The translations under genes and the position numbers were made by a program. A model generated the notes under the pieces. The model was not told the origin of the DNA, did not search any database, and saw nothing but the letters and a program-made list of their open reading frames with translations. A stretch of 64,000 bases of DNA from an uncultured Bacteroidales bacterium (lineage in GTDB: Bacteria; Bacteroidota; Bacteroidia; Bacteroidales; FEN-979): assembly GCA_903885595.1 (NCBI GenBank), contig CAISJJ010000298.1, positions 1 to 64,000 of the forward strand, written 5' to 3'. Position 1 is the first letter of the stretch. Each line of letters starts with the position of its first letter. Positions 15,058 through 45,911 of this stretch are shown in pieces.

Positions 15058-18000
15058 TTGTCCGACAGATTTAATCCAATTCCGCTTCAACGGCTGCTTG
15101 CACTGGCGCTTTCCGACTTCAGGGAAAACCATTTTATGGGTATTCCGGGGAGCCTGTTTTTTCGTCCCCAATTTAAGGATCCGTTCAGGATGATGCGTTA
15201 CGGGCAACTGCTTGAAACTCCCATTGGGGTGGCAGCCGGTCCGCACACACAGCTTGCTGGAAATATCATTGCAGCCTGGCTCTGCGGGGCAAGGTATATT
15301 GAGCTTAAAACCATCCAGACACTCGACGAACTCGATGTTCCCAAACCTTGCATCGATGCGCAGGATGAAGGTTACAACTGCGAATGGTCCCAGGAGCTAA
15401 GGATTCAGGAATCTTATACTGAATACCTCAATGCATGGATCATCATTCATATCCTCAGGAAGGAACTGGGTTTCAGCGGCCCGTCCGGAACGCTCTTTAA
15501 TATGAGTGTGGGATATAACCTTAACGGGATCAGGAATGAAAATGTACAGTGGTTCATGAACCATATGAGGGATTGCAAGTCAGAACTGGCGGCAGCCAGG
15601 GAATCTGTAAGGATAATCTACCCGGAGATCGACCAGATCGATATCCCGTCATGTATTTCAGATCATATCACCCTGAGTACCATGCATGGTTGCCCTCCGG
15701 AGGAGATAGAACAAATTGGCATCTACCTGATTGAGGAAAAGAAATTGCATACCACCATTAAATTAAATCCCACATTGCTGGGCGCAGGTGAACTGCATGG
15801 AATGCTCAATGACAGGCTGGGTTTCACAGCCGTGATACCAGACCTTGCTTTTGAACATGACCTGAAATATCCGGACGCTTTACGGATCCTGAAGTCTCTG
15901 CAAACTGTTGCAGCAGAAAACGGGGTACAATTTGGGGTAAAACTTACCAATACCCTTGAAAGTATAAACAACAAGGATGTTTTTGACTCATCCGAAACCA
16001 TGATGTACATGAGCGGCAGGGCATTGCATCCCGTCAGCATTTCCCTGGCCAGGAAGCTGCAAAATGACAACGAAGGCAGGCTGGATGTGTCGTTTTCGGC
16101 TGGGGTCGATTGTTTCAATATCCATGATGTGATTGTCTGCGGAATGAAGCCGGTCACGGTTTGCACAGATTTACTGAAACCCGGAGGATATGGACGTTTG
16201 TACCAGTATATCGAAAATCTCCGGTCTGAGTATACGCGTATACCTGATGATGTCAATGTAGCCCTGGCCAATCTGAACGCTTATGCCGACCGTGTTGCCG
16301 GCAACCCCGCCTATCATAAAGGTTTTTTAACCAGCCCCTCCATAAAAACTTCGCGGGAACTTGGCTGGTTTGACTGTATTCATGCGCCCTGCACGGATAC
16401 TTGTCCCACAAACCAGGATGTCCCGGAGTATATGCATCACACTGCCCTGGGCGATACTTCTGCGGCTTTCGAAACCATTTTCCGGACCAATCCTTTTCCT
16501 TCGGTCACCGGGATGGTTTGTGATCATTTGTGCCAGTTCAAATGCACGCGGATCAATTATGATGAAGCGCTGCAGATCAGGGAAATTAAAAGGTTTGTGG
16601 CGGAGAGTGGATTTACATGGACCCCACCCCCGGCCAAAGCAGAAAGGACCTCACCCCCGGCCCCTCCCCTTGGAGGGGAGGGGAGAAGGGCTGCTATTAT
16701 TGGGGCCGGCCCGGCGGGACTATCCTGTGGCTGGTTCCTTCGCAATGCCGGTTTTAATGTAGATATCTTCGAACAGAAAAAGTTGCCGGGAGGCATGGTT
16801 TCTGCTGCCATACCGTCATTTCGCCTTACTTCGCAGGCAATTGAAACTGATATTCAGCGAATCTTAGCCTCAGGTGTCCAACTGCATGACAACCATCCTG
16901 TTGATCATACCCGGTTCGAAGAACTCAGGCGTGATTACGACGTATTGTTTTTGGCTGCAGGCGCTCAAAAATCACTGGGATTAAAGATCATTGGCATTGA
17001 AGCACCCGGAGTTGTCGATCCGCTGGAATTTTTATTTGATGTCAGGCAAAACCAAAAAACCCGCTTGGGAAGCCATGTGGTGATAATCGGTGGCGGAAAC
17101 ACAGCCATGGATGCAGCCCGCACAGCTTACCGGCTGGTTGGGAATGAAGGAACTGTGACCATTGTTTACCGGCGTACGGTAAAAGAAATGCCCGCCGATC
17201 ATGGCGAAATTGAAGCAGTTAAGAATGAAGGAATTGCGATCATTGAACTTGCAAATCCCCTGCGTGTTCAATATGACGGAGAAAAGGTTACAGGAATAGT
17301 TTGTTCCCGTAATATGCTGTCTGAAAAAGGAAAGGACGGGAGGCCCTCTCCGGTCGCCATCCCTGGTTCTGAGTTTGAGATTTCATGCGATACCATCATC
17401 CCGGCCATTGGGCAACAACTTTCTCTCGACTTTCTGGATCCTGAGCAGCTTATTACCAAGCCCGGGAGCTACAAAACCCGCATTCCCAGACTTTACATCG
17501 GAGGCGATGCCCTCCGGGGCGCATCCACTGCCATCAATGCCATCGGCGATGGACGTAAGGCGGCATCGGAGATTCTTGCTGATATGGAGCACCTTCTCCC
17601 AACCCCTGCAGCACTGATGCCCTCACCCCCAACCCCAGTAGCGCTGATGCCCTCACCCCCGGCCCCTCCCCCTGAGGGGGAGGGGGGTAGTTCTAAGAGG
17701 CTGAATTTCAATATTTCAGACTTGCTACATCGCAAGGCGACCAGGGACTATGGTTCTCATCCAAATGAGACGGCAATTGATCAGCGACGGAATTTCGATC
17801 TGGTCATATCCTCATTATCTCCGGAGCAAGCCAGGAAAGAGGCCTCCCGGTGCCTGCAGTGTGATGTTATCTGCAATGTTTGTGTTTCGGTTTGCCCTAA
17901 CCTGGCGAATTTCGGATATCAGATTGAGCCAGTCCGGTATTCGCTGAAGAAAGCGGTTTTGTTGGAAGATGGCAGCATCGCATTCAGACCGGATAAAATC

Positions 18001-18411
18001 TTCAAAGTTGATCAGCAACTTCAGATCCTGAACATCCGCGATCTTTGCAATGAATGCGGCAACTGCACTACGTTTTGTCCTAGCAGTGGGCGGCCCTTTG
18101 CCGATAAACCGGGAATTTGCCTTTCGGTAAAATCGCTCAGCGAAGAGGGCTCAGGGTTTTTCCTGAGCCGGCTTCCTGAAAAACTTGTGCTGATCCATAA
18201 GGAAAACGAAAATATCAGGACCCTGAGTTTGATTGACGGAAAATATGTGTATGAAACAAACCAGGTCAAGGCGGTTATCGATCCGGCTGAATTTACCCTG
18301 GTGGATGTAAAATTTCTGATCCCTTGTGTGAAAGAATTTCATTTTGAGTTTGCAGCAGAGATGAGCATTGTAATGAAAGGGGCGATACAGGTGAGTTTAT
18401 TTGAACGTTAG
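15058..18411 (+). CDS. ygfK: YgfK-like oxidoreductase (putative selenate reductase subunit family; FAD/NAD(P), Fe-S), TTG start
   Basis: MSDRFNPIPLQRLLALALSDFRENHFMGIPGSLFF...; CTDTCPTNQDVPEYM; AAIIGAGPAGLSCGWFLRNAGF; CNECGNCTTFCPSSGRPF; contains two in-frame repeat inserts. Confidence 0.8.
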   Translation: MSDRFNPIPLQRLLALALSDFRENHFMGIPGSLFFRPQFKDPFRMMRYGQLLETPIGVAAGPHTQLAGNIIAAWLCGARYIELKTIQTLDELDVPKPCIDAQDEGYNCEWSQELRIQESYTEYLNAWIIIHILRKELGFSGPSGTLFNMSVGYNLNGIRNENVQWFMNHMRDCKSELAAARESVRIIYPEIDQIDIPSCISDHITLSTMHGCPPEEIEQIGIYLIEEKKLHTTIKLNPTLLGAGELHGMLNDRLGFTAVIPDLAFEHDLKYPDALRILKSLQTVAAENGVQFGVKLTNTLESINNKDVFDSSETMMYMSGRALHPVSISLARKLQNDNEGRLDVSFSAGVDCFNIHDVIVCGMKPVTVCTDLLKPGGYGRLYQYIENLRSEYTRIPDDVNVALANLNAYADRVAGNPAYHKGFLTSPSIKTSRELGWFDCIHAPCTDTCPTNQDVPEYMHHTALGDTSAAFETIFRTNPFPSVTGMVCDHLCQFKCTRINYDEALQIREIKRFVAESGFTWTPPPAKAERTSPPAPPLGGEGRRAAIIGAGPAGLSCGWFLRNAGFNVDIFEQKKLPGGMVSAAIPSFRLTSQAIETDIQRILASGVQLHDNHPVDHTRFEELRRDYDVLFLAAGAQKSLGLKIIGIEAPGVVDPLEFLFDVRQNQKTRLGSHVVIIGGGNTAMDAARTAYRLVGNEGTVTIVYRRTVKEMPADHGEIEAVKNEGIAIIELANPLRVQYDGEKVTGIVCSRNMLSEKGKDGRPSPVAIPGSEFEISCDTIIPAIGQQLSLDFLDPEQLITKPGSYKTRIPRLYIGGDALRGASTAINAIGDGRKAASEILADMEHLLPTPAALMPSPPTPVALMPSPPAPPPEGEGGSSKRLNFNISDLLHRKATRDYGSHPNETAIDQRRNFDLVISSLSPEQARKEASRCLQCDVICNVCVSVCPNLANFGYQIEPVRYSLKKAVLLEDGSIAFRPDKIFKVDQQLQILNIRDLCNECGNCTTFCPSSGRPFADKPGICLSVKSLSEEGSGFFLSRLPEKLVLIHKENENIRTLSLIDGKYVYETNQVKAVIDPAEFTLVDVKFLIPCVKEFHFEFAAEMSIVMKGAIQVSLFER
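16651..16690. repeat. GC-rich palindromic repeat inserted in frame in ygfK-like gene
   Basis: tcacccccggcccctccccttggaggggaggggagaaggg encoding SPPAPPLGGEGRR. Confidence 0.8.
17588..17697. repeat. Second in-frame GC-rich repeat insert in ygfK-like gene, with 30-bp direct duplication
   Basis: gcactgatgccctcacccccaaccccagta followed by gcgctgatgccctcacccccggcccctccccctgagggggaggggggtag, encoding TPAALMPSPPTPVALMPSPPAPPPEGEGG. Confidence 0.85.
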
Positions 18412-18446
18412 TGCCTATTATTTAATTAAACAAACACCAAAAAGCT

Positions 18447-19232
18447 ATGAAAAAATCATTCGTTTTCTTTATGCTCTTATTTTGCATCAAGGGCTTTTCC
18501 CAGTTCACTCTGGATTTCCAAAGTCAAATTTTCCAGTTAAGGGATCTAAAATTGAGTAATTCCTTAACAAAATATTTGGATTATGGTCAATTGACAGCTA
18601 ACCCGGATCAGTTTACCATTTACAATCTTGATGGAACATTTTATAAAACCGTCACACTTCCTGCTCCCCCAAGTGGATATGTTTTTCATTATGAAATTAC
18701 TAATATATCAGTATCACTATTTGATAACAATCCTTCAACAATCGAATACCTTGTTTGGTATGCGAATGACAGCATCGCGGGGTCCCAGAGTAATTTAGTT
18801 AGAGTGATCAGAGAGGATGGTACCATTTTGTTTAGTGAGAATAATGCATCTTATCCAAATACATATTCAACAGAAGAAGGGGCGAAATTAATGCTTCTTT
18901 ATCATTATGCAAATGGTCAATTCATTGCAAATAAAGTTTTTAGCCTTCCTGGGGAATTGCCAACCAGTATAAATGATAAGCTTGATGGAAGTAATAGCTC
19001 GAGTATTTATCCCAACCCGAACGGAGGATCATTCTATTTAAAATATAAAACGAATCCTGTGGGGGGAAGTAATCTTCAATTGTTTTCAAATACAGGTAGT
19101 CTTATTGGTACATTCAATTCAAATGATAATCCTATACATATAAATGTTCCTGGTTTGTCAGATGGTATATACTTTTTAAATAACGTATCGAATGGTGGTA
19201 TTACCAGATATAAAGTGTTTATCAAAAAATAA
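18447..19232 (+). CDS. Secreted protein with T9SS-type C-terminal sorting domain
   Basis: Signal peptide; C-term SIYPNPNGGSFYLKYK...LSDGIYFLNNVSNGGITRYKVFIKK. Confidence 0.75.
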   Translation: MKKSFVFFMLLFCIKGFSQFTLDFQSQIFQLRDLKLSNSLTKYLDYGQLTANPDQFTIYNLDGTFYKTVTLPAPPSGYVFHYEITNISVSLFDNNPSTIEYLVWYANDSIAGSQSNLVRVIREDGTILFSENNASYPNTYSTEEGAKLMLLYHYANGQFIANKVFSLPGELPTSINDKLDGSNSSSIYPNPNGGSFYLKYKTNPVGGSNLQLFSNTGSLIGTFNSNDNPIHINVPGLSDGIYFLNNVSNGGITRYKVFIKK

Positions 19233-19237
19233 CAGGC

Positions 19238-19328
19238 ACTGACGAGCCGCTAATCCGCAACAAAACCAGCATTGACGGGTCTTTTCAAAGGTTTGTCGTT
19301 TGCTGCGGTTAGCGGCCGGGCGTTAGCT
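19238..19328 (+). other. attC-like (integron recombination-site-like) folded element
   Basis: ACTGACGAGCCGCTAATCCGCAACAAA...TTTGCTGCGGTTAGCGGCCGGGCGTTAGCT: long imperfect stem with an extrahelical base, ends in GGGCGTTAG, directly after a stop codon. Confidence 0.45.
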
Positions 19329-19354
19329 CCAGTTTCAGAAAATTCCTGAATTCA

Positions 19355-19398
19355 ATAATGTATATTCCTTGTGACCAAAAACTAATTTTTAAAAAATG
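19355..19398 (+). promoter_or_regulatory. Conserved leader element, copy C (partial match)
   Basis: AATGTATATTCCTTGTGACCAAAAACTAATTTTTAAAAAATG, resembles leader copies A and B. Confidence 0.4.
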
Positions 19399-20343
19399 AA
19401 ACATTGTTATCCGTTTCTTTTTATCCTTCTTTTTATCACCGGCCCGTTTGATTCTGCTTATGGGCAATCATCCGTGGCCATAACAATTGATGATGTTCCA
19501 GGTACAGGCAAGTTGCAAAAGGATAATTTTACATCACAACTTTTACAAGAACTGGATTCGTTGAACATTCCCGTTACCATATTCATTACTGAAGGTTTAA
19601 TTTACAAGGGAGACAGGGTAGATAAAAATTTTGAACTTTTGAAAAACTGGATGAACAGAGGTTATACTACGATAGGATACCATTCATCAAGACACCCACG
19701 TTACTCAGAGGTCGGGTTGGATTCTTTTAAAATCGACGTGGAGCGCGGCGAAAATCTTGTGAAGCAATTAGCTCAGTCGAAAGGTAAATCAATAAACTAT
19801 TTTCGATTGCCATATAATGACTTAGGCAAGGATAGCCTTCAACATGCTGATATCGAAAGATATTTGTCCTCGAAAAATTACAAAATAGCGCCTTTTACTG
19901 TTGAAAGTGCCGACTGGATGTTCAATTACATTTATGAATATTACCTGGAGAAGAAAGATTCAGTAAAAGCCCGTGAAACAGCCGGTAATTATATTGCAAA
20001 GACCCTTGAGTATTTTGATTTTTTTGATTCTCTTGCATGGAAGATCTACGGAAGGCCAATCAACCAGGTTTATTTGTGCCACGACAATAGGTTGAATGCA
20101 GATTATCTGCCGGTATTGTTAATTGAAATGAAAAAGAAAAAGCATGGAATTATCAGCTTTGACGAAGCACTGCAAGACAATGTTTATCAGCAGAAAGACA
20201 ATTACTATAAGAAATGGGGAATTTCCTGGATATACAGATGGATGAAAAACCAGGAGGAGATATCATTTTTCAGTAAAAAGGAACCTGAAGATGATTCGTA
20301 TGATTTGTACAAAAAATTGGTGCAGGAAAAAAAGGAGCAATAA
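19396..20343 (+). CDS. Secreted polysaccharide deacetylase-family protein
   Basis: Signal peptide; VAITIDDVPGTG, TIFITEG, TIGYHSSRHPRYSEV, FRLPYND. Confidence 0.8.
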   Translation: MKHCYPFLFILLFITGPFDSAYGQSSVAITIDDVPGTGKLQKDNFTSQLLQELDSLNIPVTIFITEGLIYKGDRVDKNFELLKNWMNRGYTTIGYHSSRHPRYSEVGLDSFKIDVERGENLVKQLAQSKGKSINYFRLPYNDLGKDSLQHADIERYLSSKNYKIAPFTVESADWMFNYIYEYYLEKKDSVKARETAGNYIAKTLEYFDFFDSLAWKIYGRPINQVYLCHDNRLNADYLPVLLIEMKKKKHGIISFDEALQDNVYQQKDNYYKKWGISWIYRWMKNQEEISFFSKKEPEDDSYDLYKKLVQEKKEQ

Positions 20344-20380
20344 AGTTAACAAACAATAAAGAGTCTGATTTGGCAGGACA

Positions 20381-20415
20381 TCCCCCTCCCCTCCAAGGGG
20401 CGGGACGGGGAGAGG
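20381..20415. repeat. Intergenic copy of GC-rich palindromic repeat
   Basis: tccccctcccctccaaggggcgggacggggagagg. Confidence 0.5.
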
Positions 20416-20484
20416 TCACTATAAATCAGGGATTTGATAAAAATTTGAACAATCAATAAGATTCTAGTATTAAATTTGACAAAT

Positions 20485-21957: not shown

Positions 21958-21958
21958 A

Positions 21959-22009: not shown

Positions 22010-23368
22010 ATGCCTGATAAATTTCACTTCGAATGTGTTGATTGCAAGACGGAATACCCAGGTGATAAAGTCCTGTACCTGTGTCCTGCCTGCGAAAAGC
22101 TAAACCAACCCGACCGGCCGCCACGGGGCGTTCTGAAAACAATTTTCCCGTATCAGCAAATCAGGAAGTTATCCCCCGATGAAAGACTTTTCGGACATCT
22201 TGAACGTGATCATTTTCTTCCGTTAATGCCTTTGCGGGATATGAAATCATGGCCGTTGCTAAAGATCGGGGATACTCCGCTGTATCAGATCGGCAGGCGG
22301 ACAAGAGGACCAGTGGACAGGCGGGCAAGCGGACAGGCGGACAAGCGGACAAGTGGACCAGTGGACAAGCAGGCAAGCGGGCAGGCGGGCAGGTTTATGG
22401 AATCTTTGAATTTTGAATTGTATCTGAAAGATGATTCCCGGAATCCCACATTCTCATTCAAGGATCGCGCCTCGGCACTGGTTTCGGCATGGGCAAAAGA
22501 AAACGGGATCGAAACACTGGTTGCAGCCTCCACCGGCAATGCCGGTTCCTCGCTTGCCGGGGTTTGTGCTTCACAGAGACAGCGCGCGATGATCGTCGTT
22601 CCGGCAGCGGCCCCATTGGCGAAACTTACCCAGATCCTGATGTATGGCGCAACGCTGGTTGCGGTAAAGGGTACCTATGATGATGCATTCGACCTGAGTG
22701 TGAAGATCTCTGAAAAATATGGATTCTATAACCGGAATACAGCTTATAATCCACTGACCATCGAGGGCAAGAAAACAGTTTCCTTTGAACTCTTCCGGCA
22801 ACTCGGTTACCATGTCCCCGACCGCATTTTTATCCCGGTCGGCGATGGCGTTATTTATGCCGGTGTCTGCAAAGGGTTCGAAGACTTGCTGAAACTCGGG
22901 ATCATAGAACGGATGCCGGTCCTGGTTGCCGTGCAGGCGGAGGGGAGCAGCAACCTGGTCAACAACCTGAAAAGCAGTTCATTTATTGCCAAATCCTCCA
23001 AGACCATCGCCGATTCCATCTCAGTGGATGTCCCGAAATGTTTTCACATGGCAGTCGGATATATGGATGAATACCAGGGAGAGGCCGTTTCGGTATCGGA
23101 CAAGGAAATCCTGCAGGCCTCGCTGCTTCTTTCACGTTCAACGGGAATATTTTCGGAACCTGCCGCGGTTGCAGCGTTCGCTGGGATGTTAAAATATCAC
23201 GATAAGGGCATGATTCAGGCTCAATCCACAAATGTGGTGTTGCTCACCGGCAGCGGGCTGAAAGACCTGTCAGCCGTTCAGTCATCCATTCGTATTCCCG
23301 ATCCTGTAGGCCCGGACATTGATTCCGTGGAGGAACTCATTCAAAAGAATTTTTCACAAACATCTTAA
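22010..23368 (+). CDS. Threonine synthase-like PLP enzyme with N-terminal zinc ribbon and in-frame 8-bp repeat insert
   Basis: CVDCKTEYPGDKVLYLCPAC; NPTFSFKDRASALVSAWAKENG; ASTGNAGSSLAGVCA; 8-aa repeat insert at residues ~95-128. Confidence 0.75.
   Translation: MPDKFHFECVDCKTEYPGDKVLYLCPACEKLNQPDRPPRGVLKTIFPYQQIRKLSPDERLFGHLERDHFLPLMPLRDMKSWPLLKIGDTPLYQIGRRTRGPVDRRASGQADKRTSGPVDKQASGQAGRFMESLNFELYLKDDSRNPTFSFKDRASALVSAWAKENGIETLVAASTGNAGSSLAGVCASQRQRAMIVVPAAAPLAKLTQILMYGATLVAVKGTYDDAFDLSVKISEKYGFYNRNTAYNPLTIEGKKTVSFELFRQLGYHVPDRIFIPVGDGVIYAGVCKGFEDLLKLGIIERMPVLVAVQAEGSSNLVNNLKSSSFIAKSSKTIADSISVDVPKCFHMAVGYMDEYQGEAVSVSDKEILQASLLLSRSTGIFSEPAAVAAFAGMLKYHDKGMIQAQSTNVVLLTGSGLKDLSAVQSSIRIPDPVGPDIDSVEELIQKNFSQTS
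22292..22393. repeat. Octanucleotide tandem array (~12 units, consensus GCGGACAA) inside a coding gene
   Basis: gcggacaa gaggacca gtggacag gcgggcaa gcggacag gcggacaa gcggacaa gtggacca gtggacaa gcaggcaa gcgggcag gcgggcag; encodes RRTRGPVD RRASGQAD KRTSGPVD KQASGQAG. Confidence 0.95.
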
Positions 23369-26457: not shown

Positions 26458-27759
26458 ATGCTCCTGCTCAAAAACAGCACCTATATCGACTGGCAAACGC
26501 TGGAATTCAAACGCACAGATATCCTGGTTGAAGAGGGACCGGGGGGTGGCATAAGGTTTTTAAATGCCCTCACCCCCGACCCCTCTCCCGGGGGGAGAGG
26601 GGAGAACCCTGTGCCGGAAACCCAGCGAATCATTGACTGTTCCGGAAAATTCATCACCAAATCCTTTGCCAACGGACATCATCACGTTTATTCCGCCCTG
26701 TCCCGCGGAATGCCGGCGCCGAAGAAAAATCCGGTGAATTTCCAGGAGATCCTGCAATACATCTGGTGGAACCTCGACAAGGCGCTTGACCTGGAGATGA
26801 TCCGGGCGAGCGCGCTGGTTACGGCCATGGCCTGTGCGAAGAATGGCGTGACATGCGTCATCGATCACCATGCTTCGCCCGACGCAGTTAATGGCAGCCT
26901 CGAAACCATTGCAGGGGCATTTGATGAGGTAGGTGTCGGTCACCTGCTGTGTTACGAAATTTCCGATCGCGACGGAAAAGCAATTGCTCAAAAAGGGCTG
27001 GACGAATCAGCGGAATACCTTTCACATCGCCCCGGCCTTGTCGGACTTCATGCTTCATTTACGGTCGGGGATATAACCCTGAAACAAGCTGTCAGGCTTG
27101 CAGAAAAGACAAATTCAGGCATCCACATACATGTTGCCGAAGACACATCAGACCAGGAACATTGCCTTGAACATTACCATCAAAGGGTCATTGAACGCCT
27201 GTCGGATAGCGGAGTTTTGCAATTTCCAAAAACCATCCTGGCCCATTGCCTTCACCTGGATGACCATGAACGGGGACTGGTTGAAGGGTCGCCTGCCTGG
27301 GTGGTACAGAATATGGAAAGCAACCTCAACAATTCGGTAGGTTTTTTTAACTCAAAAGGTTTGGGAAATCGGATTATGTTCGGTACCGATGGCATGCACA
27401 GCGATATGTTGCGCAGCGCCAGATCGGCATTCTTTGCCGGTCATAATTTCGACACCATTGACTATGGTGAAACTTACCGGAGGTTCAGGAATGTTCACCT
27501 GTATCTTCAATCGAATGGATTTTCAGGAAACGGCGACAACAACCTGGTTGTCCTGGATTACGACTCGCCAACTCCTGTTTCCGGAGATAATTTTACCGGG
27601 CATTTTCTTTTTGGATTGGAATCAAATCATATTACACACGTTATCTCAAAAGGGGAATTAATAATCGAAGACAGAAAAATTATTACGGTTGACGAAAACC
27701 AAATACTTGCAAATTCAGTGAAGCAGGCAATGAGGTTATGGTCCCGAATGAAACAATGA
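26458..27759 (+). CDS. ssnA: SsnA-like aminohydrolase (amidohydrolase superfamily)
   Basis: GKFITKSFANGHHHVYSALSRGMP, HIHVAEDTSDQEHCLEHY, ILAHCLHLDD, FGTDGMHSDML; neighbours YgfK-like and Mo-hydroxylase genes. Confidence 0.8.
   Translation: MLLLKNSTYIDWQTLEFKRTDILVEEGPGGGIRFLNALTPDPSPGGRGENPVPETQRIIDCSGKFITKSFANGHHHVYSALSRGMPAPKKNPVNFQEILQYIWWNLDKALDLEMIRASALVTAMACAKNGVTCVIDHHASPDAVNGSLETIAGAFDEVGVGHLLCYEISDRDGKAIAQKGLDESAEYLSHRPGLVGLHASFTVGDITLKQAVRLAEKTNSGIHIHVAEDTSDQEHCLEHYHQRVIERLSDSGVLQFPKTILAHCLHLDDHERGLVEGSPAWVVQNMESNLNNSVGFFNSKGLGNRIMFGTDGMHSDMLRSARSAFFAGHNFDTIDYGETYRRFRNVHLYLQSNGFSGNGDNNLVVLDYDSPTPVSGDNFTGHFLFGLESNHITHVISKGELIIEDRKIITVDENQILANSVKQAMRLWSRMKQ
26564..26610. repeat. GC-rich palindromic repeat inserted in frame in ssnA-like gene
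   Basis: atgccctcacccccgacccctctcccggggggagaggggagaaccc encoding ALTPDPSPGGRGEN. Confidence 0.9.
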
Positions 27760-27831: not shown

Positions 27832-28310
27832 GACTGAGCGCTATTATGCCAGTGAATTTAACATTTGGAGCAGCGACCTTCATCCATACGCTCCGCAGGA
27901 GCGAAACATGGGTAAACTTATTAGGTTCAGGAGCATTTCGCTCCGTAAGTGCGAAATATTGGTAGAACGATTAGGTTCAGGAGCATTTCGCTCCATAGGT
28001 GCGAAATATTGGTAGAACGATGAGATTCAGGAGCATTTCGCTCCATAGGTGCGAAATATTGGTAGAACGATTAGGTCCAGGAGCATTTCGCTCAGTAGGT
28101 GCGAAATTATTTCCCGTTGAATCAAATCTAAATACATTGCGCACCTACGGCGCGCTGAGCTCGGGATGGGGGCATACGGGCTAACCGGATTTGGCTCCTT
28201 CAGAGCCCGAAAGGATAACTGAAAACTGCACCCTCAAACAGTAAGAATCTTGCTATATTGAATGCTTCTGGTATAATTACGATCATTCAATAACAATTCG
28301 TAATGCTAAC
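27832..28310 (+). repeat. Dispersed non-coding element, copy 1, with 50-bp internal tandem repeats (~3.6 units)
   Basis: Unit GGAGCATTTCGCTCCATAGGTGCGAAATATTGGTAGAACGATTAGGTTCA at 27930, 27980, 28030, 28080(partial); flanks match 55800-56186 in inverted orientation. Confidence 0.9.
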
Positions 28311-33642: not shown

Positions 33643-33720
33643 GCCTCACCCTAACCCTCTCCTGAAGGAGAGGGAATACTCCCCTTCTCCTTCAGGAGAA
33701 GGGGCCGGGGGGTTGAGGTG
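33643..33720. repeat. Large GC-rich palindromic repeat pair between gldA and gldF
   Basis: cctcaccctaaccctctcctgaaggagagggaatactccccttctccttcaggagaaggggccggggggttgaggtg. Confidence 0.85.
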
Positions 33721-34841: not shown

Positions 34842-37800
34842 TTATTTTAATCTTTCCACAGCCATCAGGATCACCTCTCCTGTCGCAGGCAGCGAGAATT
34901 CGGGCTCTTTTTCATGACCGGCCACAGCGGAAATAGCATCTTTGATGGCCAGCCACACCGACAGTCCAAGCATGAAGGGAGGTTCTCCCACCGCTTTGCT
35001 TTGGCGGATGGTATGTTGATTTGGTACATCCTTTAACAGCTCCACCCTGAAATCACCCGGGATATCATTAATCGTCGGAATTTTATAAGTGTCAGGTGAA
35101 TGGGTGAGCAGGTGTCCTTCATTGTCCCACTTGATCTCCTCAGTGGTGCACCAGCCCATTCCCTGGATAAACCCGCCTTCAACCTGCCCGATATCTATCC
35201 CCTCGTTGATAGAATTCCCCACATCATGAATAATGTCGGTACGGAGTACCCTGTGAGCTCCGGTCAGGGTATCGATTTCCACCTCAGATACTGCCATTCC
35301 GTAGGCAAAATACAAAAAGGGATTTCCCTGGCCGGTTTCGCGGTCGAAAAATATTCCCGGCGTTTTATAAAATCCGGTTGAACTCAGACTAACCTGGTTG
35401 GGCCGGGCCAGACTGCAAAGTTTTGCAAAGGGAATTGCATAGGATGGGAATTCGATGTCGTAAATATTATTATCCCGGAAAACGATGTTTTCTTTTTTAA
35501 AATTATGTCCGGGATGCTGACTTGTCAGCTCCGTTAAGGCAAGACCGCTCAGCCTTTCTTTTATAATCTCAATAGCATTTTTAACTGCCATGCCGTTCAG
35601 GTCACTTCCTGATGAAGCGGCGGTGGGAGAGGTGTTCGGCACCATGGAGGTATTGGTGGGGTTCACCCTGATTTGTTCAGGACCTATGCCTAATTCAATT
35701 GCTGCGATCTGGAGTATTTTGGTGTGCAGGCCTTGCCCCATCTCTGTCCCGCCATGGTTGACCAGCACGGTGCCATCAGTGTAGATGTTTACCAATGCTC
35801 CCGCCTGGTTCAGGAAGGCGGTAGTAAAGGAGATGCCGAATTTCACCGGGGTAAGGGAAATACCTCTCTTAAAATGCTCATTTTCCCTGTTGAACCGGTT
35901 GATCTCCTGTCTTCGTGCGTTATATTCTGAAGAGCTGACCAGCTTTTCATACATCCTGAAAAGGTGGTTGTTTTCAACCTTTTCGCCGTAAGGGGTCAGG
36001 TTACATTCAGCGTTGCGGTAAAAATTCAGGTACCGGATCTCTGCTGCATCTTTCTTCAGGAAACGGGCAATCTGGTCAATGGCATTTTCAATAACGGCTA
36101 TTCCCTGGGGACCGCCAAATCCGCGGAAAGCCGTATTGGATGGCAGGTTGGTTTTCCAGGCTTTTCCCGTTATTGAAACATTTGGCAACCAATATGCATT
36201 ATCTGCATGCAACATTGCCCGTTCGAGAATAGCACGCGTGAGGTCGGTCGCGGAACCTGCATCTGCATTCAGGTCTACCCTGTATGCGAGGATCAATCCA
36301 TCATCGTCGAACCCGATTTCATACCTGGACATGAAGCGATGCCGTTTGCCGGTCATGATCTGGTCATCATCGCGGAACAGGTGGATTTTTACAGGTTGCC
36401 TGGTGTCATTTGCCAGCAGGGAGGCCCACGCCGCCACATGATTTCCCTGTGTCTCTTTTCCCCCGAACCCGCCGCCGATACGCTTTACTTCAACCTCAAC
36501 TTCGTTTTTTTGAACACCCAGAACTTCCGCAACGATCGATTGGGTCTCAGAAGGATTCTGACTTGATGCATGTACGAACATCTCCTTCCCTTCCCCGGGA
36601 ATGGCAAGTGCAGTTTGGGTTTCAAGGTACCAGTGCTCCTGTGCACCGGTGCATAGCTCGCCACTGATAACGTGGGGGGCAGTTTGTAATGCGGTTAAAA
36701 GATCTCCTCGTTCTATTTTCCGGACCGGAGAAATGATATCGTTGGCGGCAATGGCCGATTCGATATCGATGATAGCAGGGAGCTGTTCATATTCGATCAC
36801 GATACATTTCTCTGCCGCCAGGGCCGCCTCTTCCGTTTCGGCAGCAATCAGGGCAATTGCTTGCCCGATAAAGGTAACCTCCTTTTCAGCGAGACAGGGT
36901 TCGTCATGAATCAGCGGCCCCATCTGGTTTTCCCCCGGAATATCCCTGGCTGTAATAATCCTGCGGACTCCCGGCACTGACAAAGCCGCTGTAAGATCCA
37001 GCTGGCGGATTATAGCATGCGCGTATTTGCTATACACGACTTTACCATACAGAAGATCATTGTTTACTACGATGTCTTCTATGAACACCGACTCTCCTGT
37101 TGTATGTTTTTCTGCGCTATCGTTAACCACCCTTACAGGGTCCCACACCCTTACAGGGTCGTCAACCCTGACAATGTTGATGGTTGGCTCAAGAAAGAAT
37201 TTCAGCAATAAATTCCTGCCGGCTGTCTTCCGGTATTCAGCTTCGGCCCTGGCATCAGAGATGGGGGTGAAATCATGGTCAAAAACACGCATGGCCTCCG
37301 AAATGGTTTCACGTGACCATGATTTTCCCGTTAAATAACGCTCAGTGTTTACCGCTCGTTTTGGGATTTCAGCCAGTCCTCCATACGCCAGGATGATCTG
37401 ATGAATAATGCCATCCGTTTTAGTTACCCTGAAAGCGGCACTGACGGTCGAAATATCCATGTTTTTCCTGCGGGAGACTTTATGGGAGAAAATATACGTG
37501 CCAGGATTGATCTTAGGAATTTCAATTTCAGTTATCAATTCATCATTTCGCAGGATTGTTTTATGGTAACCGGTGATGAAATCCTCAAGGTCAATTTTCC
37601 TTGCTGAACTGGCCGATTGAACTTTGATATTGGCGCGATAGGCGATGAGCAGGGGAAGCAAATCGCCAATGGGCGAAGCAGAACCAACATTTCCGCCCAG
37701 GGTTGCGATATTTCGTATTTGCAGGGAGCCGAAAACCTGCAGCAAGGCATGAAGGGCGGGTAATCTCTCCTTCGAAAAGGCTTTGAGTTGCTCCATTGTA

Positions 37801-38624
37801 AAACCGGCGCCAATTAGGTATTGTTCCTTTTCTTCAATGCAATGCCGCAATTCACTAATACCCGAAAGATCAATGATCATGGGCAGCAACTCTTTTTTCT
37901 TTGTCTGGCGCAAGGATACATCGGTTGAACCATTCAGGATGACCGCTGAAGGATATTCTTTCCTGAGCCTGAGAGCTTCCGAGAGTGTAAATGGTTTAAA
38001 GTAGCTTTGCGGCCCTTTTTTTATTTCAATGGTTTCAGTCACCGAAGTGATCTCCTTTAACATTTCAATTACGGCAGCCTCATTCTGCGAAAATTGATCC
38101 TGTGCAGTTTCTTCAGCAACCCGCCTGGCAGCATTCAGAATGGACTGGTAGCCCGTACACCGGCATAAATTACCGGTCAGGGAATCTTCAACGATTTCAC
38201 GTGACGGATTCCGATGATTTTTAAACAGGCCGAACAGCGACATCACAACCCCGGGGGTGCAGTAACCGCATTGGCTGCCGTTGGTCTCCACCAACATTTG
38301 CTGGACCGGATGAAGAATTTTGTCCTTCTCATGAAAAACTGCGAGATTCTCTACCGTTATGATCTGCTTCCCGTGTATCATCGGGAGAAATACCAGGCAG
38401 GAATCGACCGTTCGGTAAACAAGTTTACCATCCAGGTCTGTTTCGGCCAGTACGACCGTGCAGGCACCGCAATCTCCTTCAGCACAGCCCTCTTTAACCC
38501 CCTTGTGCCCATGCAGCGAGCGGAGGTAATTCAATACTGTAGTTGTCGGCTTCAAATCATGAGTTGCTGAGAAATCAATCTCAACGATGCGATTATCCAG
38601 CACAAACCGGATAGTGTTTTTCAT
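34842..38624 (-). CDS. Xanthine dehydrogenase, fused 2Fe-2S/FAD/Mo-binding polypeptide
   Basis: CAEGDCGACTVVL, CGYCTPGVVMSLFGLF, NLCRCTGYQSI, ATLGGNVGSASPIGDLLPLL, GGGFGGKETQG, AFRGFGGPQG, AVGEPPFMLG. Confidence 0.9.
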   Translation of the reverse strand: MKNTIRFVLDNRIVEIDFSATHDLKPTTTVLNYLRSLHGHKGVKEGCAEGDCGACTVVLAETDLDGKLVYRTVDSCLVFLPMIHGKQIITVENLAVFHEKDKILHPVQQMLVETNGSQCGYCTPGVVMSLFGLFKNHRNPSREIVEDSLTGNLCRCTGYQSILNAARRVAEETAQDQFSQNEAAVIEMLKEITSVTETIEIKKGPQSYFKPFTLSEALRLRKEYPSAVILNGSTDVSLRQTKKKELLPMIIDLSGISELRHCIEEKEQYLIGAGFTMEQLKAFSKERLPALHALLQVFGSLQIRNIATLGGNVGSASPIGDLLPLLIAYRANIKVQSASSARKIDLEDFITGYHKTILRNDELITEIEIPKINPGTYIFSHKVSRRKNMDISTVSAAFRVTKTDGIIHQIILAYGGLAEIPKRAVNTERYLTGKSWSRETISEAMRVFDHDFTPISDARAEAEYRKTAGRNLLLKFFLEPTINIVRVDDPVRVWDPVRVVNDSAEKHTTGESVFIEDIVVNNDLLYGKVVYSKYAHAIIRQLDLTAALSVPGVRRIITARDIPGENQMGPLIHDEPCLAEKEVTFIGQAIALIAAETEEAALAAEKCIVIEYEQLPAIIDIESAIAANDIISPVRKIERGDLLTALQTAPHVISGELCTGAQEHWYLETQTALAIPGEGKEMFVHASSQNPSETQSIVAEVLGVQKNEVEVEVKRIGGGFGGKETQGNHVAAWASLLANDTRQPVKIHLFRDDDQIMTGKRHRFMSRYEIGFDDDGLILAYRVDLNADAGSATDLTRAILERAMLHADNAYWLPNVSITGKAWKTNLPSNTAFRGFGGPQGIAVIENAIDQIARFLKKDAAEIRYLNFYRNAECNLTPYGEKVENNHLFRMYEKLVSSSEYNARRQEINRFNRENEHFKRGISLTPVKFGISFTTAFLNQAGALVNIYTDGTVLVNHGGTEMGQGLHTKILQIAAIELGIGPEQIRVNPTNTSMVPNTSPTAASSGSDLNGMAVKNAIEIIKERLSGLALTELTSQHPGHNFKKENIVFRDNNIYDIEFPSYAIPFAKLCSLARPNQVSLSSTGFYKTPGIFFDRETGQGNPFLYFAYGMAVSEVEIDTLTGAHRVLRTDIIHDVGNSINEGIDIGQVEGGFIQGMGWCTTEEIKWDNEGHLLTHSPDTYKIPTINDIPGDFRVELLKDVPNQHTIRQSKAVGEPPFMLGLSVWLAIKDAISAVAGHEKEPEFSLPATGEVILMAVERLK
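37127..37175. repeat. Duplicated short palindromic repeat inside xanthine dehydrogenase linker
   Basis: cacccttacagggtcccacacccttacagggtcgtcaaccctgac, encoding VRVDDPVRVWDPVRVV; stem ACCCT/AGGGT shared with hairpins at 14938-14952 and 52393-52409. Confidence 0.7.
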
Positions 38625-40292: not shown

Positions 40293-40299
40293 GCTGACT

Positions 40300-40716: not shown

Positions 40717-41057
40717 ACTTGTAGGTTTTCCTGTATTTTTTTTGGCAATTTAACTACAACGAGTTTATACGATTGCCTGATATAGTGTTCCCACTCAATG
40801 TAGCTGAACCTGTCTTCCTTCAAGACAGTCATCCACTGGCGCCTGGCAAAATGAGATGCCTGAATGATATCGCCCGCTTGCGTTAATTCATCAAATTGCT
40901 CTTCAGGAACTTTTAAGGCAACCTGAAGCGGAGGGTCAAGTCCGGTAAGACAAAATATTTTTCCGGCTACTGAGAAAACCAGGTGGTTCTCCCACTTGAT
41001 GTCTTCGGTCACTGCCGGAAGCGTCAGACAAAATTCACGAAGCTCTTCAATGTTCAT
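40713..41057 (-). CDS. MmcQ/YjbR-family protein
   Basis: MNIEELREFCLTLPAVTEDIKWENHLVFSVAGKIFCLTGLD...LKVPEEQFDEL. Confidence 0.8.
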   Translation of the reverse strand: MNIEELREFCLTLPAVTEDIKWENHLVFSVAGKIFCLTGLDPPLQVALKVPEEQFDELTQAGDIIQASHFARRQWMTVLKEDRFSYIEWEHYIRQSYKLVVVKLPKKIQENLQV

Positions 41058-41450
41058 GGGTCAAAATTAATAAATCTTTGGTTCATGTGTCAGGCTTGAC
41101 GTTTGTCTGTCGCATTTTACACTATTTGATTTGTCCTTCAATCCTGCAGTTGGTTGATGGGTCGAAAATTTGGGATTTCATCCATTTCACTGAAAAAAAC
41201 AATCACAACAATATTTAATTTTGAAGGTTCCGTTAAGATAGGTTGTATTCACTGTGAATTAAATATATATTTGTATTACCATCCTTAAGAATGAAAATTC
41301 AAAAGAGGTGAAGACAAAAATCTTTTTATCGCTTCAGCCTGAACATATGCTTCCAGGGATTACACAATCGAGATATTCGGATACCCCGGCAGCAAATCTC
41401 AAATCATAAATTATCTGTTATTCTGATTGTTGTAACCCAAAATAAAGTTT

Positions 41451-42068
41451 ATGGCACTGAAAGAGAAAATTAAAAACAATCCACAGCTGAAAAGCTTGGT
41501 TTTAAAAGCGATGATTCCACGAAACCGGGCGCGACCCAGGTTGTGGGTGCGCTGGTTCATCAACCCGTTTGTCCATCACAAAGGGAAACGCACAGGAATC
41601 TGCAAATCGGCGAGGATTGATGTGCTGCCTTACTACAAGTTTTCTCTTGGAGATGATTCCATTATTGAAGATTTTGCGACAATCAACAATGGAGTCGGTG
41701 ACGTTTTTATCGGTACAAAGAGCCGCATCGGGCTGGGATCAACGTTGATCGGACCCCTTAAAGTCGGGAATGATGTTCTCATCGCCCAAAATGTAGTATT
41801 ATCAGCATTAAATCATAAATACGAAGACGATACCTTGCCGATCTCCAGGCAGGGTTTTACCAAAAATGCCATCGTTGTTGAAGATGAAGTCTGGATTGCA
41901 GCCAATTGTGTGATCCTTTCAGGTGTAACAATAGGAAAACATGCCATAGTCTCGGCAGGAAGCGTTGTCAGGCGCAATGTCCCATCGTATTCAATTGTAT
42001 CAGGTAATCCGGCTAAGGTCATCAAACGACGAAACCCTGAAACGAAAATCTGGGAATGGAAAATTTAA
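41451..42068 (+). CDS. Left-handed beta-helix (hexapeptide) acyltransferase
   Basis: Hexapeptide repeats; IAANCVILSGVTIGKHAIVSAGSVVRRNVPSYSIVSGNPAKVIKRR. Confidence 0.85.
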   Translation: MALKEKIKNNPQLKSLVLKAMIPRNRARPRLWVRWFINPFVHHKGKRTGICKSARIDVLPYYKFSLGDDSIIEDFATINNGVGDVFIGTKSRIGLGSTLIGPLKVGNDVLIAQNVVLSALNHKYEDDTLPISRQGFTKNAIVVEDEVWIAANCVILSGVTIGKHAIVSAGSVVRRNVPSYSIVSGNPAKVIKRRNPETKIWEWKI

Positions 42069-42124
42069 TGCTGATTGATTTTGTCAGATGTCCGATAAAT
42101 AGTTAAATCTGCCTGAATATTTTG

Positions 42125-42132
42125 TATATTTG
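42125..42132 (+). promoter_or_regulatory. Candidate Bacteroidota -7 promoter box (TATATTTG)
   Basis: TAnnTTTG match upstream of acyl-CoA ligase. Confidence 0.5.
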
Positions 42133-42154
42133 CAACATCAATTTCCTCAACGCT

Positions 42155-42184
42155 GCCCCCGCAAGCGATTTTCGGGGGCTTTTT
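42155..42184 (+). terminator. Intrinsic terminator-like hairpin in the 5' leader
   Basis: GCCCCCGCAAGCGATTTTCGGGGGCTTTTTC, 7-bp GC stem plus U-tract, ~20 nt after the promoter box. Confidence 0.65.
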
Positions 42185-42202
42185 CGTGATAAAAAACAAC
42201 TC

Positions 42203-43846
42203 ATGGAAGACACATCCAGGTTAACATTCCCGGCTTTTTTTGCGGCAACCTTAAGCCAGTTTGGCCAACGCAATGCATTGGCGCTGGTTGGGAAACAACC
42301 GATTACCTATCTTGAAGCCAATAAGCAAATTATGGCAACAATGGCTTTCCTGGAGAAAATGGGGATTCAGCCTGGCGATAAAGTTGCCATCCTGAGTACA
42401 AACCAGCCCAACTGGGGAATTGCATACTACGCGATCACCTTTATGGGTGCCGTAGTAGTTCCGCTCTTACCCGAATTCCTGCCGGTCGAAATATTGTCGC
42501 TGCTGGAACACTCTGAAACACGGGTTGTTTTTGCCTCCGAGGGATTATTGCCCAAAATGGTGGGGATTACAACCGATTACCTGCAGGAAGTTATTAAAAT
42601 CGAAGATTTTTCAGTCATCCGGTCTTATGAAGGATGGCCTGCTTATGATGCAGAGGCGAAACCTTCTGGCGTTTACGATGTTGAAGAAGATGCATTGGCT
42701 GCCATAATCTATACATCCGGTACAACAGGAACACCCAAAGGTGTGATGCTCACGCATAAAAATATCTGTTTTACGGCGATCAAAGGTCATGAAATTCAGC
42801 CAATTAAGGCCACCGACCGGTTTCTTTCAATCCTGCCGCTGTCGCATACTTACGAAAATACCCTTGGACTGATCCTTCCGATGTACCAGGGCGCCTGTGT
42901 GTATTATCTTGGCAAACCGCCCACGCCGGCACTGTTGCTTCCTGCCCTCCTGGAGGTGAAACCCACCACGATGCTCACGGTTCCGATGATCATCGAAAAA
43001 ATATTCAGGTCAAAGGTTTTACCTGCTCTTACAGAAAATAAAGCGCTAAGACTTTTATATAAACTTCCGCCCGTTCGCAAGGTTTTACACCGGGTTGCAG
43101 GCAAAAAACTGTTGCAGACTTTTGGTGGTGAACTCAACTTCTTCGGTGTCGGAGGAGCAAAACTGAATAAAACGGTGGAACGGTTCCTGATAGAGTCACA
43201 TTTTCCCTATGCCGTGGGGTATGGCCTCACCGAATGTGCTCCGCTGCTGGCCGGGTTTAACCCCCAGCATCCGGAACTTCAGTCAACCGGACCCGCCTGT
43301 ATTGGCGTTGAGCTGAAGATCGTCAAAACGGATGATCACAGCCACGAAGGGGAAATTTGGGCGAAAGGCCCCAACATCATGAAGGGATATTACAAGGAAC
43401 CCAAAATGACCAGTGAAATCATCACCCCCGACGGATGGCTGAAGACAGGTGATCTGGGTGCGTTTGATAAAAACAACAACCTGTTTATCAAGGGACGGGT
43501 AAAAAGCATGATCGTCAGGTCAAACGGCGAAAATGTTTACCCTGAAGACATTGAATCGGTGATCAATAATTTCCGTCATGTGGTTGAATCACTGGTTGTA
43601 GAAAAGAAGGGCAAGCTCGTTGCGCTTGTTCATTTCAACCAGGAGGAGATTGAACTGCGCTATCAATACCTGAAAAATGAAGTTGCCAACTACGTCGATC
43701 AGAAAATCGAAGAACTTCGGCAGGAACTTCAGGATTACGTGAATTCCAGGGTCAATAAATTCTCACAGGTGCAGATCGTTGTTGCACAGCAAGACCCCTT
43801 TCAGAAAACCGCCACGCAGAAGATCAAGCGGTTTATGTATACCTGA
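42203..43846 (+). CDS. Long-chain acyl-CoA ligase/AMP-binding protein
   Basis: IIYTSGTTGTPKGVMLTHKN, YGLTECAPLLAGF, GWLKTGDLGAFDKNNNLFIKGR; start moved from 42122 to METDTSRL-like ATG at 42203. Confidence 0.9.
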   Translation: MEDTSRLTFPAFFAATLSQFGQRNALALVGKQPITYLEANKQIMATMAFLEKMGIQPGDKVAILSTNQPNWGIAYYAITFMGAVVVPLLPEFLPVEILSLLEHSETRVVFASEGLLPKMVGITTDYLQEVIKIEDFSVIRSYEGWPAYDAEAKPSGVYDVEEDALAAIIYTSGTTGTPKGVMLTHKNICFTAIKGHEIQPIKATDRFLSILPLSHTYENTLGLILPMYQGACVYYLGKPPTPALLLPALLEVKPTTMLTVPMIIEKIFRSKVLPALTENKALRLLYKLPPVRKVLHRVAGKKLLQTFGGELNFFGVGGAKLNKTVERFLIESHFPYAVGYGLTECAPLLAGFNPQHPELQSTGPACIGVELKIVKTDDHSHEGEIWAKGPNIMKGYYKEPKMTSEIITPDGWLKTGDLGAFDKNNNLFIKGRVKSMIVRSNGENVYPEDIESVINNFRHVVESLVVEKKGKLVALVHFNQEEIELRYQYLKNEVANYVDQKIEELRQELQDYVNSRVNKFSQVQIVVAQQDPFQKTATQKIKRFMYT

Positions 43847-43850
43847 CCCT

Positions 43851-43885
43851 ATTTACGATTTGCGATTTTGGATTTACGATTTTTG
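43851..43885. repeat. Heptanucleotide tandem array, consensus ATTTRCG
   Basis: ATTTACG ATTTGCG ATTTTGG ATTTACG ATTTTTG beginning 5 bp after the stop codon at 43846. Confidence 0.85.
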
Positions 43886-44153
43886 GCCGGCAGTAGTTTT
43901 TTTCGTGGAAACTTTACTGGCTGATTTAACCCACTTCTTTTAAAGTTGGTGTGCGCAAATCAATTCACTTTTTCAAATCGTAGGGATAAAGTCATTTCTT
44001 TTTTATTGAACCCCGTGTTCTTTTCCCCGAAATTTAACGGCATGCCGAACAATGTAATAATGTCGGCATTTGTTTAGCCCTGTAAAATAAAATTTCCGTT
44101 TATTTGTTTTTTTTTATTCAACACATAATCGTTGGATTTAACCTTGCATTAGG

Positions 44154-44792
44154 ATGAATGTAAACCGCCAACTGGACGAACGCGCCCTGGAATTCCTATT
44201 CAGGGATCATTTCACCGGCCTTTGCCAGTTTGCGGTTGGTTATATCAAGGATACTGAGGCTGCAAAGGAGATCGTTCAGGATGCGTTTGTCAGTCTCTGG
44301 GAAAAGCGGGATTCCATCGACATGTCGAAGCCGGTGAAAACATATCTTTCAACTACAGTTCGCAACAGGTGCCTCAATTATCTCCGCGACCATAAAAAAT
44401 TCAGCAGCGACCTCCTGGCACTCGAAAATCTTTCGATCGATACAATTTACGATCAACCCGATAAACTTGTTGAATCAGATATTCACCAGCAGATTTCCAG
44501 AGCAATTGAAGAATTACCTGAGAAATGCCGTGAGATATTCAAATTAAGCCGCCACCAAAACCTGAAGTATCAGCAAATTGCCGATGAACTGCAAATTTCG
44601 GTGAAAACAGTCGAAACCCAGATGTCGAAGGCCCTCCAACACATGCGCCTCCGCCTCGCCGAATATCTGCCGGTGCTCGTTCTCTTATTTTTGCCATTCT
44701 ACCATTTTACATTTTACATTTTGCACTTTACATTTTGCACTTTGCACTTTGCATTTTGCATTTTGCCATTTTTTCATACAGCATCAGGGTAA
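44154..44792 (+). CDS. ECF sigma-70 factor with repeat-encoded hydrophobic C-terminal tail
   Basis: LFRDHFTGLCQFAVGYIKDTEAAKEIVQDAFVSLWEKR; LPEKCREIFKLSRHQNLKYQQIADELQISVKTVETQMSKAL; tail FTFYILHFTFCTLHFAFCILPFF. Confidence 0.9.
   Translation: MNVNRQLDERALEFLFRDHFTGLCQFAVGYIKDTEAAKEIVQDAFVSLWEKRDSIDMSKPVKTYLSTTVRNRCLNYLRDHKKFSSDLLALENLSIDTIYDQPDKLVESDIHQQISRAIEELPEKCREIFKLSRHQNLKYQQIADELQISVKTVETQMSKALQHMRLRLAEYLPVLVLLFLPFYHFTFYILHFTFCTLHFAFCILPFFHTASG
44694..44776. repeat. Heptanucleotide TTTGCAY tandem array (second locus) forming the sigma gene 3' end
   Basis: ccattttacattttacattttgcactttacattttgcactttgcactttgcattttgcattttgccattttttcat. Confidence 0.9.
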
Positions 44793-44828
44793 AAGCCTGC
44801 AAAGGTGTATTATAAACGGGAAAACAAT

Positions 44829-45911
44829 ATGGAAACAAATTCTACACATTATATTGATCTGATAACCAGGTGTTTTTTCGGGGAAGCATCCCCTGAAGAT
44901 ATTCTGGAACTGGAAGCATGGGTCAAAGCCAACCCCGAAAATGCAGCCCTGTTTTCGGAATATCACAAAACCTGGAAAGCTCTGGAAAATTCAAAAATCC
45001 AATCTTCCATCGACCTCAACCTTGAATTTAACAATCTGAAATCCGAAATTCGAAATCCGAAATTGGAAATCCGAAATCCGAAATACAAACCACCAAATCC
45101 GAACCGGAGCGAAGCGGAGCTCGGCGGAGCCAAATCCGAAATCCGAAATCCGAAATCCGAAATCATCTCCCTGGTCCTTCGCGTTGCAGCCGTTTTCATT
45201 CTCCTGGCAGTTCCAACCTTTTTTCTCTATCGCTATCTGGCAGTTCCGGCCGAAAAACAATTGGCTGCATCCACCGAAACCATAGAACAAACCCTCCCAG
45301 ATGGCACAGTCGTTACCCTGAATGCCGGCTCAACCCTGTCGTACCCATCGCATTTTGAGGGGGCGTTCCGCCGGGTGACCTTGCAGGGCGAAGCCTGGTT
45401 CGAGGTGGCCCATGACAGATCAAAACCTTTTATCATCACGGCAGATAATGTGCGGATCCGGGTCGTGGGCACTTCATTTTTTGTCGATACCAAAACCAGG
45501 AATGATACGAAAGAGGTAATCCTGTCGAGCGGGGTCGTAAAGGTTTATTACAATGATAAGCCCGGAACGATGGCTATGCTTTTGCCCGGCGATAAAGCCG
45601 AACTGATCACCGGCGGTTATGAGATCGTGAAAACCGCCAACCGCGATGTGAACTACCTTGCGTGGAAAACAAAACGCCTGGTCTTCACCAGTGCGTCGCT
45701 GAATGAGGTTGTTGCGCTGCTGACCAAGGTCTATCACACAAATGTCCGGTTATCCGGTGCCGGTTTGAGTGATTGCACGATTACTGCTACCTTTGACAAC
45801 CAATCGCTTGAATCGGTATTGAATGTACTCAAAGCCACCCTCGATCTGCAGATCAGGAACACCTCCGAAGGGATCGAACTCTCCGGCCATGGCTGTAATC
45901 CGGCCAGGTAA
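44829..45911 (+). CDS. FecR-family anti-sigma factor with in-frame 7-bp repeat insert
   Basis: AASTETIEQTLPDGTVVTLNAGSTLSYPSHF...VTLQGEAWFEVAHD; downstream of ECF sigma, upstream of TonB receptor; start moved from 44805. Confidence 0.85.
   Translation: METNSTHYIDLITRCFFGEASPEDILELEAWVKANPENAALFSEYHKTWKALENSKIQSSIDLNLEFNNLKSEIRNPKLEIRNPKYKPPNPNRSEAELGGAKSEIRNPKSEIISLVLRVAAVFILLAVPTFFLYRYLAVPAEKQLAASTETIEQTLPDGTVVTLNAGSTLSYPSHFEGAFRRVTLQGEAWFEVAHDRSKPFIITADNVRIRVVGTSFFVDTKTRNDTKEVILSSGVVKVYYNDKPGTMAMLLPGDKAELITGGYEIVKTANRDVNYLAWKTKRLVFTSASLNEVVALLTKVYHTNVRLSGAGLSDCTITATFDNQSLESVLNVLKATLDLQIRNTSEGIELSGHGCNPAR
45037..45167. repeat. Heptanucleotide AAATCCG array inside FecR-like gene
   Basis: Two arrays of GAAATCC units separated by gaaccggagcgaagcggagctcggcggagcc; encodes SEIRNPKLEIRNPKYKPPNPNRSEAELGGAKSEIRNPKSEI. 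Confidence 0.95.

Follow-up and report, generated by a model that had tools for sequence, protein, structure and literature searches.

Rickettsia palindromic elements (RPEs) are palindromes that occur in frame in housekeeping genes and also in intergenic regions (PMC3733652). The GTAG/CGTC REPs, small palindromes known from many species, have likewise been found inside ORFs, including those of UvrA and tRNA synthetases, where they account for 20-30 aa (PMC3733652). Heptamer repeats (STRR-like) form dispersed 7-bp arrays that are mostly intergenic and whose mechanism of spread is not known (PMC4679880; PMC4692102). Copies of the heptamer TAACTGA within ORFs lie mainly at protein ends (PMC4679880), and repeats of the GGGAATC type are under-represented in genes (PMC4692102). 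A survey of prokaryotic satellites covered units of 10-200 bp, recorded short repeats derived from 6-8-bp units and described coding repeats as multiples of three (PMC6749651). In-frame palindromes and heptamer repeats are themselves already known. What is new is that several families with no relation to each other, 7/8-bp arrays among them, occupy recurrent inter-domain sites throughout one genus.

Genomes and approach

The window, meaning the whole stretch of 64,000 nucleotides analysed here, is contig C298, one of the 547 contigs that make up a draft genome of 6.02 Mb. It was compared with 18 further genomes of the same genus (19 in total), which are fragmented and in many cases apparently metagenome-derived. 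For the YgfK-like, threonine-synthase-like (ThrS) and SsnA-like genes, syntenic regions from most congeners were aligned, with orthologues from up to 17 congeners. Arrays were called with Tandem Repeats Finder on stretches of the source genome and of congeners; part of the source-genome sample was picked by repeat hits, so the counts below describe the sample and not a genome total.

In-frame repeats in the window

The initial annotation proposed that different kinds of repeats lie within five genes of the window and leave the reading frame intact. All six coding inserts were found in frame (Table 1), and they belong to unrelated families, namely 7- and 8-bp arrays, a C-rich palindrome and the 18-bp unit of xanthine dehydrogenase (XDH). 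The objection that distant homologues would share the inserts as ancestral protein sequence fails, as congeners and outgroups are empty or differently filled. Across the congeners, orthologous sites were seen to be empty, decayed or occupied by other repeats. Ordinary enzymes and a single anti-sigma factor are the products of the host genes. In these proteins the inserts occur at the borders of domains or in a loop predicted to be disordered. The proposed inter-domain or surface placement holds for most of them: both YgfK sites and XDH are inter-domain by Pfam, and the ThrS insert is predicted to be disordered.

Table 1. Repeats in the window and the genes that carry them.
Feature	Position	Strand	Host gene or setting	Encoded peptide or remark
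Heptamer array TTTTGCA	1198..1291	+	intergenic-type	same family as the sigma-tail array
YgfK-like host gene	15058-18411	+		carries two inserts
C-rich palindrome, YgfK site 1	16649..16685	+	YgfK-like	SPPAPPLGGEGR, aa 531-543
Partial tandem copies, then palindrome, YgfK site 2	17598..17685	+	YgfK-like	LLPTPAALMPSPPTPVALMPSPPAPPPEGEG
8-bp tandem array, GCGGACAA/G variants, ~11.5 units	22297..22388	+	ThrS, 22010-23368	RRTRGPVDRRASGQADKRTSGPVDKQASGQA
Palindrome	26567..26604	+	SsnA-like, 26458-27759	ALTPDPSPGGRGE
Related palindrome CCTCACCCTAACCCTCTCC..GGAGAGGG	33655..33674	+	intergenic copy	
Two copies of the 18-bp unit ACCCTTACAGGGT with palindrome ACCCTGTAAGGGT	37128..37160	-	XDH, 34842-38624	DDPVRVWDPVRV
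TTTTGCA 7-bp array	44703..44772	+	ECF sigma factor, 44154-44792	upstream of FecR
AAATCCG 7-bp array	45033..45164	+	FecR-like anti-sigma factor, 44805-45911	nested second repeat, 45099-45131

Site 1 of the YgfK-like gene is located between the Fe-S domain (Pfam end 517) and the FAD domain (Pfam start 545). In the orthologue alignment the palindrome is perfect or nearly so in the window, G002, G015 and G017, decayed in G001, G003, G012, G016 and G018, and missing from G005, G013 and G020. The P-rich...GEG peptide is retained at this site despite the decay of the DNA. Site 2, between the FAD domain (end 832) and the C-terminal Fe-S domain (start 928) according to Pfam, consists of 30-bp partial copies from 17598 followed by the palindrome at 17650-17685. 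The palindrome is in forward orientation in the window and G015, reversed in G003, G012 and G016, reversed and decayed in G001, and missing from some orthologues. Given the opposite orientations, the palindrome has reached this linker at least twice, in separate events.

A comparable pattern of presence and absence was found in the SsnA-like gene. Its palindrome is intact or nearly so in the window, G002, G014 and G017, with tandem copies in G012, G014 and G017, and survives as a fossil in G003 (CTCAGCCAAAGCCCCGATTTCGGAGGGAGAG); the site is empty in G001, G008, G013, G018 and G020. The AlphaFold model of the SsnA-like protein was set aside for structural placement, its mean pLDDT of 54 being too poor. 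At the ThrS site, the alignment places the 8-mer array in the window, G003, G013, G017 and G018, mixed 8/9-bp units in G007, a degraded array in G001 and a different 9-bp IEK array in G015, while G002, G008, G012, G014, G016, G020 and the outgroups are empty. The ThrS model has a mean pLDDT of 84, and residues 97-125, which correspond to the insert, fall below 50.

The repeat assigned to an XDH linker is present, at a point where the coding sequence of six congeners is divided between two genes. It occupies the linker between the FAD and molybdopterin domains (between 479 and 509 by Pfam), and the alignment to rat XDH breaks off at this point. Two to three related 18-bp units were found in G008 and G017 and none in G007 and G009, and the linker is free of repeats in basal congeners. 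In 11 genomes, including that of the window, one fused gene encodes both the small and the large subunit; the split in the six congeners is at the repeat-bearing linker.

The insert claimed for the FecR-like gene is likewise present and in frame but is a composite of two repeats, not one. It follows the N-terminal region and precedes the transmembrane helix, ahead of the FecR domain (Pfam). The same juxtamembrane linker carries heptamer-like variants (e.g., KSKIVNRKSKIL, SSIVNRQSSIVNRQSK and NPKSQFRNPKSQF) in G001, G003, G015, G018 and other congeners; in further orthologues the linker is short and free of repeats. A seventh coding case, absent from the initial list, is the TTTTGCA array in the neighbouring ECF sigma factor gene. 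It encodes most of the hydrophobic C-terminal tail, the sigma domain ending at aa 168; the tail is related in G017 and shorter in other congeners.

Spread and renewal of the C-rich palindrome

The C-rich palindrome is about 38 bp long, and its copies start with CCCTCACCCC, end with GGGGAG and carry the 5' tag CTCACCCC. It is not particular to the lineage, as it occurs in several other phyla. The same palindrome was found on plasmids of Azospirillum, Cupriavidus and cyanobacteria. On a Pseudanabaena plasmid (L285 2501-2541) it lies in frame in a DNA methyltransferase gene (LPPSPPAPLPRGEGRNWEF), and coding insertion is therefore not restricted to Bacteroidota. Its distribution within the phylum is patchy (8/198 genomes). 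Among copies from the genus and family, host genes include Alr, CysS (four species), O-methyltransferase, MmeI, PurL, RecO, HsdM and others. Of 31 copies classified across the family, 18 are within genes, 17 of them in one orientation. Counted by distinct site, one orientation prevails at 10 sites to 1 (L177-L206, family-wide; small numbers). The HPRPLS reading frame was not seen among in-gene copies, whose numbers are again small.

Between species, palindrome copies that occupy the same site agree at 99/116 four-fold sites, compared with 986/2327 in the rest of the same genes; the Fisher p of 1e-20 for this comparison is overstated, as the pairs are not independent. Four-fold sites are about 40% identical between congeners, a saturation of synonymous sites that masks any target-site duplication. 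Plain inheritance with neutral synonymous drift is very unlikely to have produced these copies. The palindrome copies have therefore been either renewed, by new insertion or by conversion from dispersed copies, or constrained as DNA. In SsnA, CysS and YgfK site 1, frame and orientation are identical across all palindrome copies. This uniformity favours renewal of one old insertion per site, which fits better than many new insertions.

Short repeats across the genus

The inserts had been described as a feature of one region, a confinement that was not borne out: repeats lie in genes across the genus. In further stretches of the source genome, KSEIRNPK is encoded in an alpha-2-macroglobulin (A2M) protein, EFTIYDLRFT in PurL and KITNYELRITNY ahead of a T9SS sorting domain; an octamer occurs in HldD and two arrays in an rRNA-type methyltransferase. 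A GT9 heptosyltransferase (L129 7733-7852) contains three families in succession (KSGQADKRTGQQAD, IKNYELQQIT and PVTRHVSRVT), and a CGTCACG array lies within a UvrA-type protein of G013. Pfam supports the host genes in the source genome, as it does the named hosts of the palindrome. Inserts fall between Pfam domains in YgfK (twice), XDH, CysS and MmeI; that of CysS, between the catalytic and DALR domains, corresponds to a loop of 6ujd, and that of HldD maps to the 197-208 loop of 1eq2. Peptides encoded by inserts include TSPPAPPLGGEGR, ALTPDPSPGGR and TSGPVDKQASGQAG.

Periods of 7 and 8 bp dominate the arrays called, with 51/70 in the source genome and 30/50 and 33/57 in congeners. Their density in the sampled stretches is 10.9-15.5 per 100 kb in the source genome and 7.5-18.1 in three congeners (the G010 sample being partly selected for repeats), and it falls to 2.5 for one outgroup, a related genus, and to 0.5 for another, a genome of the same order. 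An exact unit is common to another sampled array for 39/51 arrays in the source genome and for 16/30, 21/33 and 20/34 elsewhere, where random k-mers would give 2.1, 0.5, 0.4 and 0.3, respectively. Shared units sit at unlinked loci, and unit families turn over between species. The GYGGRCAR 8-mer array was found in none of 296 other Bacteroidota genomes, and a looser octamer pattern in 8/19 genomes of the genus. For nearly all coding arrays, the same genome or that of a sister species has members of the family that lie outside gene interiors.

With "interior" defined as at least 60 codons of gene on either side, 9/51 arrays of the source genome are interior, 24/51 are wholly intergenic and the remainder lie at gene edges. 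ORFs make up about 90% of the sample by a crude caller, and gene interiors are under-occupied; most coding insertions have therefore been lost or were never retained. More arrays than expected have a unit that lacks stop codons on one strand and not on the other (93/148, as opposed to 41% of random k-mers). One related 50-bp repeat (ATTTCGCNCCTACGG...) also forms an array at 27889-28107 of the window and a second, oppositely oriented one at 56009-56127, and another copy is found in stretch L128.

Origin of the inserts

The inserts are likely to be mobile or slippage-prone short repeats that selection has filtered to linkers, with tolerant sites reused and copies renewed. This reading builds on the presence and frame of the repeats, their absence from orthologues, the dispersed families, the recurrence in linkers and the excess DNA identity of copies, all of which were observed directly. 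Genomes of the genus are heavily loaded with many families of 7- and 8-bp tandem arrays and with small C-rich palindromes. Replication slippage, together with template switching between copies, would most likely have multiplied and dispersed such repeats. A repeat within a gene would survive purifying selection only if the frame is kept and the site tolerates a flexible peptide, presumably one with no specific function; such a filter would leave repeats in inter-domain and juxtamembrane linkers and in surface loops of normal enzymes. Whichever of the three frames of a strand is read, a 7- or 8-bp unit yields an identical cyclic peptide, so that each strand of an array is open or closed throughout. 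Sites that tolerate inserts would be used repeatedly and their copies renewed.

The sister species G006 and G010 (about 96% DNA identity) differ by many small indels in their arrays, and a mostly coding stretch of 13 kb contains no indel of at least 6 bp between them. Their comparison shows array turnover between genes and caught no coding insertion. No transposase or other enzyme was tied to the repeats. The species tree from five neighbouring proteins has a star-like shape, its inner branches are weak, and it requires 4-5 changes for ThrS and 4 for SsnA; because of this shape, the order of gains and losses is not recoverable.

Arrays could instead have grown by slippage from chance seeds within genes, never being copied from elsewhere. 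As a full account this is unlikely, although ThrS offers a suggestive example. Native ThrS codons resemble the array unit (AAGGTGGACAAG in G003 and AGGTTGGACAGG in G007), the arrays of 8-mers at this site are all in one orientation, and G007 and G015 have the mixed and 9-bp arrays of their own described above. The 8-bp array reported there as 12 units is present with about 11.5; judging by these codons, it may have grown in place instead of arriving as a unit. Growth from local seeds does not account for identical units at many unlinked loci, far above chance, nor for an 8-mer family limited to the genus within the sample, and it leaves the palindromes unexplained.

The palindromes could also be REP-like elements moved by a Y1 (RAYT) transposase, the copies in genes being transposition events. 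They are REP-sized, dispersed and patchy across phyla, and PF01797 proteins are encoded in 14/19 congeners, and the window itself encodes one (59301-59642). The palindromes do not carry the GTAG or CGTC tag of REPs (PMC3733652), no intact palindrome flanks the RAYT loci examined, no PF01797 gene was detected in G015, which has perfect palindrome copies, and the 7/8-bp arrays would remain unexplained. Such an origin of the palindrome is possible but unsupported by the neighbourhoods checked, and as an explanation of the inserts it is quite improbable. The RAYT gene of the window, on the minus strand, adjoins a 16-bp array of six units in a REP-like arrangement (59087-59642); this array ends in the palindrome CCTCCAGC TTTA GCTGGAGG.

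It is highly doubtful that the inserts are kept by selection for a DNA or RNA role (pause, terminator or binding site) or for the linker peptide. The near-identity of synonymous positions in same-site copies across species would agree with such a role, as would the P-rich...GEG peptide of YgfK site 1 that outlasts its DNA. Each insert is nevertheless missing from many congeners, and one repeat is replaced by another at the same site. The C-rich palindrome folds no better than shuffled controls (z -0.4 to -1.0), and no RNA role is therefore argued from folding. Fragmented, apparently metagenome-derived genomes and repeats that can mislead assemblers raise the prospect of an assembly artefact or of ordinary ancestral low-complexity linkers, a reading that is largely refuted and hardly credible, given that independent congener assemblies have same-site inserts with species-specific units and the outgroups have none.

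For mobile or slippage-prone repeats filtered by selection, a further step can be suggested tentatively, at somewhat less than even confidence: many unrelated short repeats would, throughout the genus, land or grow time and again in the same few tolerant inter-domain linkers, with copies continually renewed from dispersed ones. If so, non-coding 7/8-bp arrays and palindromes would repeatedly give rise to new disordered linker peptides, whatever the frame.

Comparison with known systems

These observations extend the precedent set by Rickettsia, a single kind of element, to several kinds that are unrelated to each other, among them frame-neutral heptamers and octamers. In such linkers, the emergence of new protein sequence from junk DNA can be followed. 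With 18 further genomes of the genus, both the spread of short heptamer-like repeats and the frequency at which non-coding repeats turn into protein become testable. Caution is also warranted, as linker peptides such as TPDPSPGGRG and SEIRNPK in metagenomic proteins are probably repeat-derived and not conserved motifs.

As with RPEs, a dispersed repeat is found in frame in conserved genes of this genus and is missing from orthologues. RPEs are palindromic, a property that the C-rich palindrome and the XDH unit share and the 7/8-bp arrays do not. The palindrome here, likened to RPEs by description only, differs in being about 38 bp long and present in several phyla, and the same kinds of sites also harbour an 18-bp tandem palindrome and 7/8-bp arrays that are not palindromic. 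The GTAG/CGTC REPs have a defining tetranucleotide tag that is absent here, the 5' tag being the one given above, and tandem arrays are not REPs. REPs of the GTAG class associate with RAYT; in this genus RAYT genes are present, with no intact palindrome near the loci checked. Like the STRR-like heptamers, the arrays are dispersed at many loci and mainly intergenic, 8-bp units being nearly as common. They differ in that many 7- and 8-bp families lie inside enzymes, between domains and several per site, with turnover between congeners. In contrast to the coding repeats of the satellite survey, which are multiples of three, the units that are coding here are frame-neutral units of 7 and 8 bp.
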